From a virus, in the IMG/VR virus record IMGVR_UViG_3300025942_000005, positions 1 to 46,742 of that record: DNA of 46,742 nucleotides; one strand, 5' to 3'. A model generated the notes under the pieces. The model was given only the letters and a program-made list of their open reading frames with translations. It did no database searches and was not told the DNA's origin. Positions 4,494-41,642 of this stretch are shown here, in pieces; position 1 is the stretch's first letter, and each line of letters opens with the position of its first letter. A program made the position numbers and the translations under genes.

Positions 4494-5462
4494 ATGGGAG
4501 CACCAGGCAAAGTCACCAACTACCCGAACGGGGTCAGCTCGTTCGGGTGGGTCGTCACCCCGGCGTCGTACGCGGCGCAGGCGTGGGGCGGCGGCGCGAC
4601 CCTCTGGGTGGGTAACCGCTCTGGCCTCCCGGCCGGCGACGGTTCCACCCCGGATCGGCCGCTGTCGGCGCTGTTCGGTACGTCGGGCGGACTGGCGAAG
4701 GTCAACAACCGCGTCGGCGTCACCATCTGCATCTTGCCGGGGCACGTCGAGAGCATCACGGCGTCCACGAGCATCAGCGGCCTGACTGGCACGTCTGCGA
4801 CCGGGCTGAACATCATCGGTCTCGGGTACGGCTCGCAGCGCCCGCTGTTCAACTGGACCGCGGCTGCCTCGGCGCTCTTGCAGAACATCGCCGGGTGCTG
4901 GATCCGCAACTGCGTGTTCAACTTCTCGAGCACGGCTGCCACCGTTGTCACCGCGGCCCTGACGGCATCAGCGGCTGACTGCGGCCTCGATGCCGTCGAA
5001 ATCAAGCCGGCTACCAGCGCCACTCAGCTGACGACCACGGGCATCACGGTCGCGACCGGCGCGACGAAGTACACGCTATTGGGCGTCGAGGTGGTATCCG
5101 AGACCTTCGCGACCAACCCGACCGACATCCTGACGACCACGGCGGCCGTCGACAAACTGACCATGTACGGATGCCGGTTTCACACGGCGGTCAACTCGAC
5201 TTCGAACGGAGTCATCAACCTGGCGAACGCTCCGACGAACGTCTGGATCGAGGACTGCACCTTCGTCAACAAGAAGGCCGCTTCGACCGTCGCGGCTATC
5301 GCGAGCGCCAGCACCACTGGGTTCGTGAACTTCTGCTCGCTCGGGATCATCTCGACCGGCGGTAATACCTGCTTCAGCACGCCTGGGAACCTGGTCCTCA
5401 GTCAGGTGTTCGGAGGCCAGGTCAGCAAAGCGGCCATCAAGGTCGGGACCGACTCCACCTAG
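4494..5462 (+). CDS. Beta-helix-type structural protein next to capsid gene
   Basis: A 322-aa protein rich in Thr, Ala, Gly, Ser and Asn. It has short repeated strand-turn units such as GLNIIGLGYGSQRP, CWIRNCVFNFSS and NVWIEDCTFVNKK, the pattern of right-handed parallel beta-helices. Cys residues recur at similar places in successive turns. AAGGAG lies 8 nt before the ATG. Its place right after the coat gene suggests an exposed capsid or tail-surface protein. Function is inferred from fold-like composition only. Confidence 0.65.
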   Translation: MGAPGKVTNYPNGVSSFGWVVTPASYAAQAWGGGATLWVGNRSGLPAGDGSTPDRPLSALFGTSGGLAKVNNRVGVTICILPGHVESITASTSISGLTGTSATGLNIIGLGYGSQRPLFNWTAAASALLQNIAGCWIRNCVFNFSSTAATVVTAALTASAADCGLDAVEIKPATSATQLTTTGITVATGATKYTLLGVEVVSETFATNPTDILTTTAAVDKLTMYGCRFHTAVNSTSNGVINLANAPTNVWIEDCTFVNKKAASTVAAIASASTTGFVNFCSLGIISTGGNTCFSTPGNLVLSQVFGGQVSKAAIKVGTDST

Positions 5463-17662: not shown

Positions 17663-18061
17663 ATGGTAGGCAAACTCGACGGGTACGAAGTCCTGGCGAA
17701 GACCGGCGCGAAGGTCAACGGCGTCGATACGACACTCCCGGCGACAGGCGTGACGCTTGTCCTGTACCAGAGCAACCTGCGCGCAGCCGAAGGCAAGGGA
17801 GCCAGGTTCAAGATGCTGATCCTGAACCTCTATTCCTCGCACGCGAGCGCGGCCAACGGTGTCACTGTCGACGAGTCCAATGACGGCGGCTCGAACTGGG
17901 ACAACGTTTTCCAGACCACGCTCGTGGCTACGACTGCCACCAAGGCATACGTCAAGGTGTCAGCGCCAGAGCTTCGCGTGAGATTCGCCAACAGCGCCAA
18001 CAACACAACCATATTCCGGTATTCGATCATCGGTGACACGTCGGAAAGGAGCAACGGATGA
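17663..18061 (+). CDS. Small beta-rich structural protein
   Basis: A 132-aa protein with AGGAG 6 nt before the ATG. It is rich in strands (VTLVLYQSN, FKMLILNLYSS, TKAYVKVSAPELRVRFAN) and looks like a jelly-roll or Ig-like module. It is followed by a protein of the same size and style, overlapping by 4 nt. Both may be minor tail or capsid-surface proteins. No family is recognised. Confidence 0.6.
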   Translation: MVGKLDGYEVLAKTGAKVNGVDTTLPATGVTLVLYQSNLRAAEGKGARFKMLILNLYSSHASAANGVTVDESNDGGSNWDNVFQTTLVATTATKAYVKVSAPELRVRFANSANNTTIFRYSIIGDTSERSNG

Positions 18062-18465
18062 TGCTGGTACTCGGAAGCGTTGGGTTCACGCCTGTCCCGA
18101 GGCAGCAGACGCTGCTTAGTGCTGCGGCGTTCACTGGATCGCAGGTGGTCGTTTCTGACCCGATCTACATGGGCAACTCTGGCAACCGGTTCCACTTGGA
18201 GATCGTCACCACCGGGACTCCTAACGGTACGTTTGCGATAGAGGGGTCCAATCAATACGATCCGGTGTCGAATCCATCTGCGACATTCGTCGCCGAGGCT
18301 GCGGCGGCGCCTGCGTTTCCTACTCTCACCGGCACGCCGTCGCAGACTATGCACGGACTGTTCGGGACAAGCACGAACGGCCAAGGGGCGTGGCTGCGAC
18401 TCCGGTACACGAACACGTCTGGAACTGGGACGCTGTCAGTCTACGCGTTCATCCCGCCGACGTAA
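18058..18465 (+). CDS. Small beta-rich structural protein
   Basis: A 135-aa protein coupled to the previous gene (ATGATG over the TGA). Strand-rich and Thr/Gly-rich, with FHLEIVTTGTPNGTFAIEGSN, AWLRLRYTNTSGTGTLSVYAF. The pair with the previous gene could be related beta-sandwich modules. It is the last structural gene before the lysis genes. Confidence 0.6.
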   Translation: MMLVLGSVGFTPVPRQQTLLSAAAFTGSQVVVSDPIYMGNSGNRFHLEIVTTGTPNGTFAIEGSNQYDPVSNPSATFVAEAAAAPAFPTLTGTPSQTMHGLFGTSTNGQGAWLRLRYTNTSGTGTLSVYAFIPPT

Positions 18466-18468
18466 CCA

Positions 18469-18696
18469 ATGACCGACCAAGGTCGCCATATCACAGCCAT
18501 TTCCATCGCCGCAGCGGTGGCGGTCGCGGCGTCCATCTTCAAGGTGTGCGACCAGCAGCTGTACATGATCGCGTCGGGCATCATCGCGGGTGAATACGCC
18601 CTCGCTAGGTCGGCTCCCTCCGCGCCGACGACGGTTACGGGGCGCATCGATCATCCCGTCACCATCAACCAGCAGGAGCCGCGTGGCGCCCAATGA
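18469..18696 (+). CDS. Holin candidate (small membrane protein)
   Basis: A 75-aa protein with one clear hydrophobic helix at residues 8-25 (ITAISIAAAVAVAASIF) and a second weaker one at about 31-46 (LYMIASGIIAGEYALA), then a polar tail. Size, topology and position just upstream of the endolysin fit a holin. There is no strong ribosome-binding site. Other small phage membrane proteins would look the same, so the functional call is moderate. Confidence 0.55.
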   Translation: MTDQGRHITAISIAAAVAVAASIFKVCDQQLYMIASGIIAGEYALARSAPSAPTTVTGRIDHPVTINQQEPRGAQ

Positions 18697-18991
18697 TGAA
18701 CGACGACTCGCCGGGAGTGATGCTGCAACGGGTGCGGGAAGCGATGGTCAGGCAGAGACTCGGCGAGAAGTGCGGTACGGCTTCGCAGACCTCGGCGTTA
18801 TCGTCGGAACGGTTGGGCCTGCTCTTGTCGAAATGGAACGGCATCTTGGTGAGCCTGAGGACTCTTCGCTCATCGAGCGGGCGGTAGCGATGGACAAGCT
18901 GCTGAAGCAGCTGTCAGAGGCATCGGAGGAGACGCGGCGCTACCTGCACGATTGCGTTGTTGACGCCGTGGCGAGGGGCGCGCGTGGGTGA
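18683..18991 (+). CDS. Hypothetical lysis-region protein (frame start uncertain)
   Basis: A 102-aa reading from GTG 18683, with AGGAG 4 nt upstream. The C-terminal part (RYGFADLGVIVGTVGPALVEMERHL and a helical MDKLLKQLSEASEETRRYLHD) looks like a real protein. The N-terminal 30 residues look less natural. A second ORF in another frame starts at ATG 18693 (MNDDSPGVMLQRVREAMVRQRLGEK) and looks better there. Either the two genes overlap, or one gene has a frame change near 18760-18780. It lies between the holin candidate and the next gene. Confidence 0.5.
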   Translation: MAPNDERRLAGSDAATGAGSDGQAETRREVRYGFADLGVIVGTVGPALVEMERHLGEPEDSSLIERAVAMDKLLKQLSEASEETRRYLHDCVVDAVARGARG

Positions 18992-19337
18992 CACCGACGA
19001 GGAATACGTACTCGAGTACGACGACGTGCACGAGCTGCCATTCAGCGAGGAGCAGACGCCGACTAAGCTTGAGGAGCCCGGCGCCTGCTGGCGGTGTTCG
19101 CGAATCATGCCGGTGCAGATTGTGGCGCCATACCCTGGCAGTTCACACGAGGCCTTGCGGTTCCACACGTGCATCGCTTCGGCGGGCGGCGGCTGGGCCT
19201 GGTGCGCTTCGGGGATGGTGCTGCGCCTCGGCCAGTTCGAGCTCTACCTGGGACCGAACAGGCGCGCGGCGATTCTGCCGCCGCCACACGGCGAGCGGAG
19301 GCGGTTTCCTCCGAGGAAAGATGGAGACGACAGATGA
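18984..19337 (+). CDS. Hypothetical protein upstream of endolysin
   Basis: A 117-aa protein. GTG 18984 is preferred because GAGGGG lies 5 nt upstream; a TTG at 18957 would lengthen it by nine residues. The N-terminus is acidic (DTDEEYVLEYDDVHE). It contains CWRC at about residues 35-38 and HTC at about 60-62, a possible zinc site, and a Gly/Trp-rich middle. The end overlaps the endolysin start. No family is recognised. Confidence 0.55.
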   Translation: MGDTDEEYVLEYDDVHELPFSEEQTPTKLEEPGACWRCSRIMPVQIVAPYPGSSHEALRFHTCIASAGGGWAWCASGMVLRLGQFELYLGPNRRAAILPPPHGERRRFPPRKDGDDR

Positions 19338-19801
19338 CGCCACTTGCAGCAAAGGTCCTTGAACTCGCAGCCTCACAGGTCGGCGTGCGCGAGCATGGCC
19401 GCAACCGTGGCCCAGAGATCGACGGCTATTGCCGCGACATCGGTCACGACCCTGCGAAAGCTGACCCGTGGTGTGCCATCTTCGTCTCGGCGATGGTCAA
19501 GCGCGCATGCGCCGCGCTGGGCGCGCCAGTGCCGATCCACCTGACGGCAGGCGTGTTCACCCTCGACGAGCAGGCGCCGCGCGGAATGGGCACCAGCATC
19601 CCAAAGCCCGGCTGCATTTTCATCCTAAATGGACACAAGCACACTGGCTTCGTGGAGGGAGTCTTCGCCAGCGGTAACTGCGCCACCATCGAGGGCAACA
19701 CTAACCCTGGCGGGTCAGCCGATGGCGATGGGGTGTACGCGCGGACGCGGAGGCGTGACGAACTGCTCACGTTCATCGACCTGAACGAGGCGCCGCAATG
19801 A
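19334..19801 (+). CDS. Endolysin, CHAP / NlpC-P60-like peptidase
   Basis: A 155-aa single-domain protein. The N-terminus (AASQVGVREHGRNRGPEIDGYCR) is typical of CHAP/amidase-type phage lysins. The catalytic set is visible: C47 in DPWCAIF, H103 in KHTGFVEG, and a polar residue in EGNTN (122-124). Enzymes of this fold cut peptide or amide bonds in peptidoglycan. There is no signal peptide, so it needs the holin for release. The start at 19334 overlaps the previous TGA; a start further upstream lacks support. Confidence 0.8.
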   Translation: MTPLAAKVLELAASQVGVREHGRNRGPEIDGYCRDIGHDPAKADPWCAIFVSAMVKRACAALGAPVPIHLTAGVFTLDEQAPRGMGTSIPKPGCIFILNGHKHTGFVEGVFASGNCATIEGNTNPGGSADGDGVYARTRRRDELLTFIDLNEAPQ

Positions 19802-20319
19802 GAGCACTTCTCGTCCTCCTCGCCCTGGTCGGTTGCCGCCAGCAAGTCAACTGGCTGTCCGATCCGGCGTGGTCATCCGTGCCCATCACCGTGCGCTGGG
19901 ACGGCATCGACCCCGTGTTCGATGGCAGCCTGCACTATGCGGTCGACGCCTGGAATCACGCTGCTGGCTGCGACGTGCTGCGTGAGGCTGCCGATGCGCG
20001 CGTGGTCGTGTCGACCTACGACGGTACAGCGTGCGGGGCCCCTGCCCAACTCGAGCGAGCCCTTGGCGCAACGGCCGGAACATGGCGGTGCTCGGCGAAC
20101 TCGGCCGAGGTCCGCTTTCAAGTGATGTCCGACATCCGCAGCGTTTACGTCATCGCTGCCCACGAGTTCGGGCACGTCCTGGGGCTGGCTCACGACCGCA
20201 GCACCATCATGCAGGAGGCGCCGACGCTGTACGACCCAGCGGCGGGGCACAACCTTGCCGTGCTGCCGTGGCCGTCTGACGCTGACGGGGCGGCCGTGGG
20301 CGCGAGGTACTGCCGATGA
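19798..20319 (+). CDS. Matrixin-like zinc metallopeptidase, lipoprotein
   Basis: A 173-aa protein. Residues 1-13 are a lipoprotein signal (MRALLVLLALVGC, lipobox LVGC, C13). The core carries the metzincin motif HEFGHVLGLAHD, with H122, E123, H126, G129 and H132, followed by a Met-turn STIM (M138). All zinc ligands are present. Matrixins (family M10) cut proteins. The N-terminal half has the WNHAAGCDV and FQVM strand pattern of the family. It overlaps the endolysin by 4 nt and the next gene by 4 nt, so it is translated as part of the lysis cassette and should act in the envelope. Confidence 0.8.
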   Translation: MRALLVLLALVGCRQQVNWLSDPAWSSVPITVRWDGIDPVFDGSLHYAVDAWNHAAGCDVLREAADARVVVSTYDGTACGAPAQLERALGATAGTWRCSANSAEVRFQVMSDIRSVYVIAAHEFGHVLGLAHDRSTIMQEAPTLYDPAAGHNLAVLPWPSDADGAAVGARYCR

Positions 20320-20870
20320 GCCGCTCCCGCCTCATTCTGGCCGGCGCCGTCGTCCTGGCTCTCTGCGGCTCGTTCGCAGCGGGCCGCTGCACGCGCACCG
20401 TGCAGACCCGCGACGTCGTTCGCGTCGAGACGCAGTGGAAGGACCGCGAGGTTGTGAAGGTCGTCCACGACGTCCAGACGGTTCACGACGTGGCGACGCA
20501 GATGCGCACGGTGACGGTCACGAAGTGGGCGAAGGCTCCAGACGGCTCGCCCGTGGTCACGCAGGAGACGCACGCCGAGAAGGACCAGCAGGCCGAGACG
20601 AAGCGCCAGGATCACACGCAGGGCACGCAAGAGCGCCAGAGCGAGGCGCATCAGGCGACAGTAGAGACGCACACGACCGAATCGCGGCCGAACTGGTCCG
20701 TCGCGCTCCTGGCCGGCGTGCAGGACGGCGGCAAGCGGCTTGTCGACGCGCTACCAGGGCCGCTTGTCGTAGGCGTATCCGCCGAGCACCGCCTCATTGG
20801 TCCGCTCTCCGCCGGCATCTGGGGAACTACCAGTCGCACGGCTGGCATCTCGGTGCGCCTGGATTTCTGA
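20316..20870 (+). CDS. Lysis-cassette membrane protein, spanin candidate
   Basis: A 184-aa protein with one N-terminal hydrophobic segment (residues 5-22). A long hydrophilic region follows (about 25-125), rich in Val, Thr, Gln and His and likely extended or coiled. The last about 35 residues (VSAEHRLIGPLSAGIWG ... ISVRLDF) look like amphipathic strands ending in Phe, as in outer-membrane proteins. An inner-membrane anchor with a long periplasmic part and an outer-membrane-like end would suit a spanin that bridges the two membranes. This is inference; a lipobox is not clear. Confidence 0.55.
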   Translation: MSRSRLILAGAVVLALCGSFAAGRCTRTVQTRDVVRVETQWKDREVVKVVHDVQTVHDVATQMRTVTVTKWAKAPDGSPVVTQETHAEKDQQAETKRQDHTQGTQERQSEAHQATVETHTTESRPNWSVALLAGVQDGGKRLVDALPGPLVVGVSAEHRLIGPLSAGIWGTTSRTAGISVRLDF

Positions 20871-40605: not shown

Positions 40606-41127
40606 GTGGCATTCGTGAAGCTGGACACGGGGATCCTGAATTCGTCAGTCTGGGTTGACCTGGAGACGCGTAACGTATTCCTGACTGCGCTGCTCATGGC
40701 GACCCCGTACGAGGTGCGCGAGGAACTCCCGCAGCTCGCCGTGGACTCGCTCAAGCCGACCGGGTGGAAGGTACCACCTGGCTGGTACGGACTAGCAGAG
40801 GCTGCAAGCGTCGGCATAGTGCGGCAGGCCGGCGTGGACCAAGTCCGCGGCCTCGAGGCGCTGGCCAGGATGGGCGAGCCCGAGGAATGCTCGCGGTCTC
40901 AGGAGTTCGAGGGGCGGCGGATCGTCAGGGTCAACGGCGGGTTCCTGGTCCTGAACTTCATGCACTACCGCGAGAAGGACCACGGCGCCGCGGAACGACA
41001 GCGGCGTTACCGTGAGCGGAAGCGGCAGCTGTCGGCGGCCGGTCGCCAGGCTCCGGGCTTCGATGACGACGAGCTCCGCATCGCCCGCATGGCCATCCGC
41101 GAGCGAAACGACGAAGAGTGTACTTGA
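40606..41127 (+). CDS. Phage DNA-binding-like protein (wHTH-type, VKLD family)
   Basis: A 173-aa protein from GTG 40606. It has the pattern FVKLDTGILNSSVWVDLETRNVFLTALLMA, then GWYGLAEAASVGIVRQAGV, FEGRRIVRVNGGFLVLNFMHYREKDH and a basic helix AERQRRYRERKRQ. I know this architecture from many phages; it resembles the N-terminal winged-helix part of replication or regulatory proteins. It may bind the palindromes in front of its own gene. The 3' end carries the third GTGTACTTGAC motif. Confidence 0.65.
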   Translation: MAFVKLDTGILNSSVWVDLETRNVFLTALLMATPYEVREELPQLAVDSLKPTGWKVPPGWYGLAEAASVGIVRQAGVDQVRGLEALARMGEPEECSRSQEFEGRRIVRVNGGFLVLNFMHYREKDHGAAERQRRYRERKRQLSAAGRQAPGFDDDELRIARMAIRERNDEECT

Positions 41128-41152
41128 CGCCTCCGCGGATCTCAGATATACC
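41118..41152 (+). promoter_or_regulatory. Strong promoter for metallopeptidase lipoprotein gene
   Basis: GTGTACTTGAC at 41118-41128 supplies TTGACG (41124-41129). A 17-bp spacer leads to TATACC (41147-41152), then 7 bp to ATG 41160. There is no ribosome-binding site. This is the best sigma70-like promoter in the region and would give a leaderless mRNA. Confidence 0.65.
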
Positions 41153-41159
41153 CGTATCT

Positions 41160-41642
41160 ATGTCGAGCGTGCTTCGTCCGTGGGTGGGTTTTGTCGCCCT
41201 TGCGCTGGCGGTAGCTTCGTGCGGCGCTGACACTGCCGATTACGACGTCGAAGTTGACCCATCCAAGGTCGTAGATGGGCCGGCTAACACGGAGCAGGCC
41301 GTCGCGGTCCTCTCCGGCTTTTACGGGCTCGCGTCGGCGCCAGAGGTCTACTGGTACGGCGGTGCTGCCCTCGACTGTGGCGATGGCCATGCGTTCGAGC
41401 TGAAGCAATACGGATGGTGCCTCCAGGGCATCACGCTGCACGACAGACAAATCGTCCTGTCGGACTACTGGCCGGGTCAATACGGCGGGCTGGTGAGCGT
41501 TTCGGCGCTGGCTCACGAGATGGGGCACGTCGCCAGCTACCAGCACGGCGAGGGCGGCGACAGGAGCCATACCGGGCATTACTTCGCGGACGGCGGTGAG
41601 GTTGACAAGGCCTATGCCATGCTTGAGGCGGCTGGGCTGTGA
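41160..41642 (+). CDS. Lipoprotein zinc metallopeptidase (moron candidate)
   Basis: A 160-aa protein. Residues 1-21 are a lipoprotein signal with VASC (C21). The zincin motif is HEMGH (H119, E120, H123), followed by SYQHG and SHTGHYF, with H129, H137 or H140 as possible third ligand. The middle has LDCGDGHAFELKQYGWCLQG, with two Cys that may pair. It differs from the matrixin-like gene at 19798. A separate promoter and its placement beside a recombinase suggest it can be expressed from the prophage. Substrate unknown. Confidence 0.7.
   Translation: MSSVLRPWVGFVALALAVASCGADTADYDVEVDPSKVVDGPANTEQAVAVLSGFYGLASAPEVYWYGGAALDCGDGHAFELKQYGWCLQGITLHDRQIVLSDYWPGQYGGLVSVSALAHEMGHVASYQHGEGGDRSHTGHYFADGGEVDKAYAMLEAAGL

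Follow-up and report, generated by a model that had tools for sequence, protein, structure and literature searches.

A lipobox-bearing matrixin encoded between endolysin and spanin-like genes in the lysis cassette of a soil bacteriophage

A gene at 19798-20319 (+ strand) of a soil bacteriophage record in IMG/VR encodes a predicted lipid-anchored protease of the matrixin (M10 metzincin) family, placed between the endolysin gene and a spanin-like gene of the lysis cassette. Sequence comparison and structure modelling confirm this reading frame (ATG start, 173 amino acids) as a real feature, a lipoprotein with a matrixin domain, and on balance we favour the view that it is an accessory, membrane-anchored protease made at lysis time, which would cut host envelope proteins to aid the burst. 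The DNA analysed, hereafter the window, is the whole record of 46,742 bases, which is viral, looks complete and has an end repeat of 99 bases. Its genes include an integrase, TerL, a portal and head genes, indicating a temperate tailed phage.

The matrixin assignment is supported at several levels. Pfam places the protein in Peptidase_M10 (PF00413, E=4.9e-6; score 26.9 bits, cut-off 24), the profile search by which the initial annotation had proposed to check its call. An AF2 model built from 38 phage matrixins (pLDDT 85.6, pTM 0.82; an earlier model from 7 sequences had a pLDDT of 39 and was unusable) matched MMP catalytic domains in Foldseek with E-values down to 4e-6 and TM about 0.6. The zinc-binding and catalytic motif HEFGHVLGLAHD (H122-D133; 20161-20196, +) is a complete HExxHxxGxxHD, and the Met-turn methionine (I-M138; 20209-20211, +) is present and invariant in 38 phage matrixins, both as originally read. 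Fold and motif are held in common with the M10A MMP catalytic domains (MMP-20, MMP-8, MMP-11; phage matrixin profile against MMP-20, E=2e-14), from which the window protein differs in being about 20% identical, in its lipoprotein signal, in leaving no room for a propeptide and in four extra conserved cysteines. These (C58, C79, C98 and C172) are invariant across the family, the truncated copy L007 ending before C172, and may pair into two disulfides, which would suit a protein located outside the cytoplasm.

The reading frame opens with a predicted lipoprotein signal peptide (19798-19836, +) ending in the lipobox LVGC (L10-V11-G12-C13). The previously proposed anchor at C13 was upheld, the -1 residue being only G, S or A across eight carriers. 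Lipobox ORFs average 0.02 in codon-shuffled 3.3-kb sequence, and apart from the matrixin no lipobox ORF occurs on the coding strand in any carrier cassette that could be scored, a count that left out L007 and L009, in which contig ends split the gene. Just one further lipobox ORF was found in the window, outside the cassette (41118-41642, +, 174 amino acids).

The cluster containing the matrixin gene (18469-20870) closes the + strand late genes and comprises a holin candidate, two small ORFs, a CHAP endolysin, the matrixin and the spanin-like gene. The holin candidate (18469-18696, +) is a small protein with one predicted transmembrane (TM; hydrophobic) segment and no family match in Pfam or PHROG; in some other carriers a different TM protein occupies its position. 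A conserved ORF of 117 amino acids with a GTG start (18984-19337, +), which is kept in relatives and had no match in a Pfam search, overlaps the endolysin start by 4 nt. The endolysin (19334-19801, +, 155 amino acids) was correctly named at the outset, matching CHAP (PF05257, E=7.7e-6) and PHROG 9589 endolysin (E=2e-15). Both 4-nt overlaps described for the matrixin gene are exact ATGA sequences, with the endolysin at 19798-19801 and with the spanin-like gene at 20316-20319. An E. coli-type scan gave one promoter-like site in the cassette region, upstream at 18033-18062.

The downstream gene (20316-20870, +) had been put forward as a spanin candidate. A TM scan and alignment agree with this in part, revealing an N-terminal TM segment, a hydrophilic middle and a conserved, apparently beta-rich C-terminus with F as its last residue, but the PHROG Rz-like spanin match is weak (E=0.18), leaving the spanin identity weakly supported. 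The family, recognisable by its N-terminal TM segment and a C-terminal Gly-Pro-x-x-x-Gly-x-Trp-Gly, is spread in distant phages (L148, L149, L150), and its relatives in other phages adjoin endolysin or holin-like genes (holin-like in two of them). It may represent a one-protein spanin that extends to the outer membrane through beta strands.

Eight further IMG/VR contigs encode the matrixin. For this gene most pairs have a dN/dS of 0.07-0.20, with 0.07-0.19 among most close carriers; the near-identical pair of window and L001 has 0.27, and comparisons with L008 give 0.29-0.43, values that indicate purifying selection; conservation in the eight contigs, low dN/dS and the profile matches rule out a chance ORF. 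A search for the same gene order in other phages had also been proposed, and this order was found in all eight carriers examined (L004, whose matrixin is the same protein as that of L003, was left out of the neighbour comparison). The upstream neighbour is an endolysin in every one of them, from three unrelated families: CHAP in the window, L001 and L008; Peptidase M15_3 in L002 and, assigned by similarity to L002, L003; and Phage_lysozyme GH24 in L005, L007 and, assigned by similarity to L005, L006. The overlap of endolysin and matrixin genes is kept in six carriers and replaced by a gap of about 120 bases in L005 and L006. Downstream lies the same spanin-like family, sometimes with a small ORF between.

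Compared with most other carriers, DNA identity along the cassette rises at the matrixin gene and falls at its borders. The matrixins are 86-97% identical among carriers (about 60% to L008), whereas the endolysins are unrelated between types and identity among the spanin-like proteins is 38-91%. L001 and the window share TerL and endolysin but differ in the spanin-like protein (49%), and the switch falls close to where the matrixin gene ends on its 3' side. For TerL, two further carriers show 41% identity, and in others, fragments among them, it was undetectable; a TerL search found few relatives, and no significant relative turned up among named phages. That the matrixin stays 86-97% identical despite the swapping of both neighbours argues that it belongs to the lysis module, a membership well supported by gene order, and comparison of the carriers indicates that it is exchanged as a module, independent of endolysin and spanin-like type. 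Since it is constant while both phage neighbours change, neither is likely to be its substrate, and a host protein is the simplest and probable choice. The substrate classes suggested in the initial annotation, namely outer-membrane lipoproteins, a peptidoglycan-linked protein or an S-layer, are finer than these data, which suggest only that the substrate is host-encoded.

Related cassettes also occur without the protease. In L011 the same CHAP endolysin (82%) directly overlaps the spanin-like gene with nothing in between, and a search of the whole 52-kb record found no matrixin; in L147 an ORF of 82 amino acids fills the slot between endolysin and spanin-like gene. As these phages share the lysis genes, the protease is not essential to the cassette and is, on this comparison, an accessory to a cassette that also occurs without it rather than a core part. 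The arrangement resembles Rz/Rz1, in which an outer-membrane lipoprotein (o-spanin) gene lies beside that of an inner-membrane protein. O-spanins are short and non-enzymatic, and their genes often overlap or are nested in the i-spanin gene. The matrixin differs from the Rz1 o-spanin in having a folded enzyme domain, about 160 amino acids when mature, and an overlap of only 4 nt. No lipoprotein ORF was found on the coding strand of the L011 cassette, suggesting that the spanin-like protein can do without one, which weakens the idea that the matrixin stands in for a missing o-spanin.

A search of the open-access literature on lysis-associated metalloproteases found one close parallel, the metzincin Mtz of Listeria prophages, encoded with the TIMP-like lipoprotein Tim and often downstream of holin-lysin (Boichis et al. 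2021, PMC8235301). Mtz cleaves Tim, the two forming a protease-substrate pair, and expressing the two together enhances phage lysis, an effect that requires a catalytically intact Mtz (PMC8235301). The earlier statement that no standard phage lysis model with a matrixin is known was therefore too strong. Like Mtz, the window matrixin is a phage metzincin with the extended zinc motif and Met-turn, appears to be accessory and lies downstream of a (candidate) holin-lysin. Mtz, however, is secreted via an SPI signal and its partner Tim is the lipoprotein, whereas here the protease itself bears a lipobox (SPII type); and Mtz-Tim belongs to Gram-positive hosts and has a predicted Agr-type promoter, whereas the window gene sits between endolysin and spanin-like gene in a Gram-negative-type cassette. 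A phmmer search of 1311 ORFs of the window and its relatives returned no Tim homologue. Judged from sequence, this absence, the lipid anchor on the protease, the Gram-negative-type cassette and the modular exchange are what is new relative to Mtz. By analogy, we class the window matrixin as one that would work like Mtz and not as a member of Mtz-Tim.

Among other phage matrixins, the sequence often points to a membrane anchor, either a lipobox or an N-terminal hydrophobic segment. In a motif-limited sample whose neighbourhoods were read by eye, the matrixin gene overlaps an M23 endolysin gene in L104 (PF01551, E=3.5e-8), lies about 340 bases from that of an Amidase_2 protein in L040, follows weak Rz-like and TM genes in L062 and L080, and lies after or near a weak Rz-like gene in L081. 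For many others, several from large genomes, no lysis gene could be recognised in the vicinity, and none is annotated around those of Lactobacillus phage 3-521 and virus Rctr197k. The former, a Zn-dependent protease, is the best viral Foldseek match to the window matrixin (E=4e-7); unlike the window gene, it belongs to a phage of a Gram-positive host and has hypothetical genes as its neighbours. Beyond the window's own family, a tree of 38 phage matrixins was poorly resolved.

Further observations arose from this survey. The lysis-like region of L062 encodes two anchored proteases, a lipobox-bearing trypsin-like serine protease (4758-5387) directly preceding the lipobox matrixin, after the weak Rz-like lipoprotein and TM gene. 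L161 (reverse complement) has, next to a TM-anchored matrixin, a run of ORFs (at 297, 1787, 2399, 3546 and 4795) with a common N-terminal leader like FADELxKxG/A, possibly a shared signal for targeting or packaging in a phage. The record L138 of 'Acinetobacter phage' MD-2021a (CAKLQH020000026.1) carries two matrixin genes and was set aside as a phage, as the stretch looks like bacterial chromosome (grpE, dnaK, purK).

The reading of the matrixin as a lysis accessory draws on the endolysins of three unrelated families upstream, the spanin-like gene downstream, the lipobox, the matrixin fold and purifying selection, on distant phage matrixins beside lysis-like genes (L104, L062, L080, L081), and on the experimental precedent of Listeria Mtz (PMC8235301). 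It is weakened by L008, which lacks the catalytic Glu, by L011 and L147, which lack the protease, by the many matrixins away from lysis genes, and by the weak spanin assignment of the downstream gene.

The protease might instead be a receptor-clearing or exclusion lipoprotein that cleaves the phage's own receptor, at lysis or in infected cells, such that progeny are not trapped on debris or re-infection is prevented. The model for this is the T5 lipoprotein Llp, in place of whose mode of action the matrixin would use proteolysis. Such a role would suit the lipid anchor, the late position, an integrase-bearing temperate phage and the host substrate implied by neighbour swapping; we nevertheless consider it rather unlikely because the matrixin tracks with lysis genes, and because exclusion genes usually have their own promoter whereas the region has the single promoter-like site noted above. 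Alternatively, the matrixin could process a phage lysis protein, cutting the spanin-like protein (or the endolysin) so as to switch it on or set its timing, as Mtz cleaves Tim. This role has a precedent in that protease-substrate pair (PMC8235301) and would explain why the matrixin is always near the spanin-like gene. We give it a slim chance, given that a 97%-identical matrixin occurs beside spanin-like proteins only 49% identical and three unrelated endolysins, that L011 has the spanin-like gene without the protease and that the window and its relatives yielded no Tim homologue; neighbour swapping weakens any scheme in which the matrixin is dedicated to either neighbour.

Whether proteolysis matters at all is raised by L008 (902-1408), in which the motif reads HAFGH, the catalytic Glu being replaced by Ala (GCG codon) with all zinc-binding His retained. 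This copy also retains the lipobox and gene order, and the stretch after its Met-turn is shorter. It could be a decayed copy, an error, or a hint that the matrixin fold serves as a non-catalytic structural lipoprotein, an outer-membrane anchor or o-spanin-like partner, a role for which the only lipobox ORF in the cassette would be a natural candidate. Glu is, however, kept in all other carriers and, among viral contigs, in 94 of the 95 motif-bearing contig stretches, the Ala form occurring in L008 alone, so that catalysis is likely the rule; together with a spanin-like protein in L011 that seems to manage without a lipoprotein, this makes a purely structural role distinctly improbable. Absence of the protease from L011, and the other small ORFs that the slot between endolysin and spanin-like gene also accepts, would fit cargo in a late operon, either a protease for host life (nutrition, predation) or a passenger with no part in lysis. 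This is very improbable indeed, as all carriers examined have the matrixin in that slot although its surroundings have been widely exchanged, and matrixins adjoin lysis genes in other, unrelated phages.

For the favoured accessory role in lysis, we infer the timing, location, proteolytic activity, substrate and effect of the matrixin as follows. The gene would be expressed late, on one message with the endolysin and spanin-like protein, the 4-nt overlaps suggesting co-translation. The signal peptide would direct transit across the inner membrane, Cys13 would be lipidated, and Arg rather than Asp at +2 would probably send the protein to the outer membrane, going by the E. coli rule. Two disulfides and zinc would finish the fold. 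The protease would then cleave at least one host envelope protein, the likeliest targets being those that link outer membrane and wall or make the surface stiffer, and, after the endolysin opens the wall, the spanin-like protein would complete the burst faster or under harder conditions.

As to the host, a bacterial genome collection scanned with the matrixin gave no match, and scanned with the endolysin gave one relative (59%), on a contig in a Myxococcales MAG that lacks the matrixin. A scan of 379 genomes of the phylum Myxococcota, the one phylum covered in this way, found a single matrixin relative, TM-anchored and sharing the four extra cysteines, on a phage-like contig. As both contigs look like phage and one phylum was scanned for the matrixin, these matches give only a hint of a Myxococcota host.

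The usual model of Gram-negative lysis has three steps, holin, endolysin and spanin. By analogy with Mtz, the window cassette seems to be a new, Gram-negative form of an additional lysis step that is little known. We advance more tentatively, as possible though doubtful, the fuller proposal that an outer-membrane-anchored metalloprotease cuts host wall-tie or surface-layer proteins as an enzymatic extra step, that its module is exchanged independently of endolysin and spanin type, and that membrane-anchored matrixins have been recruited repeatedly beside the lysis genes of unrelated phages. If true, Gram-negative lysis would include an added enzymatic step against envelope proteins, which would suggest that the envelopes of some hosts contain protein barriers too strong for spanins by themselves. 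Together with Listeria Mtz, lysis proteases would become a general theme, and the matrixin's substrate would identify a host envelope protein that bears load.
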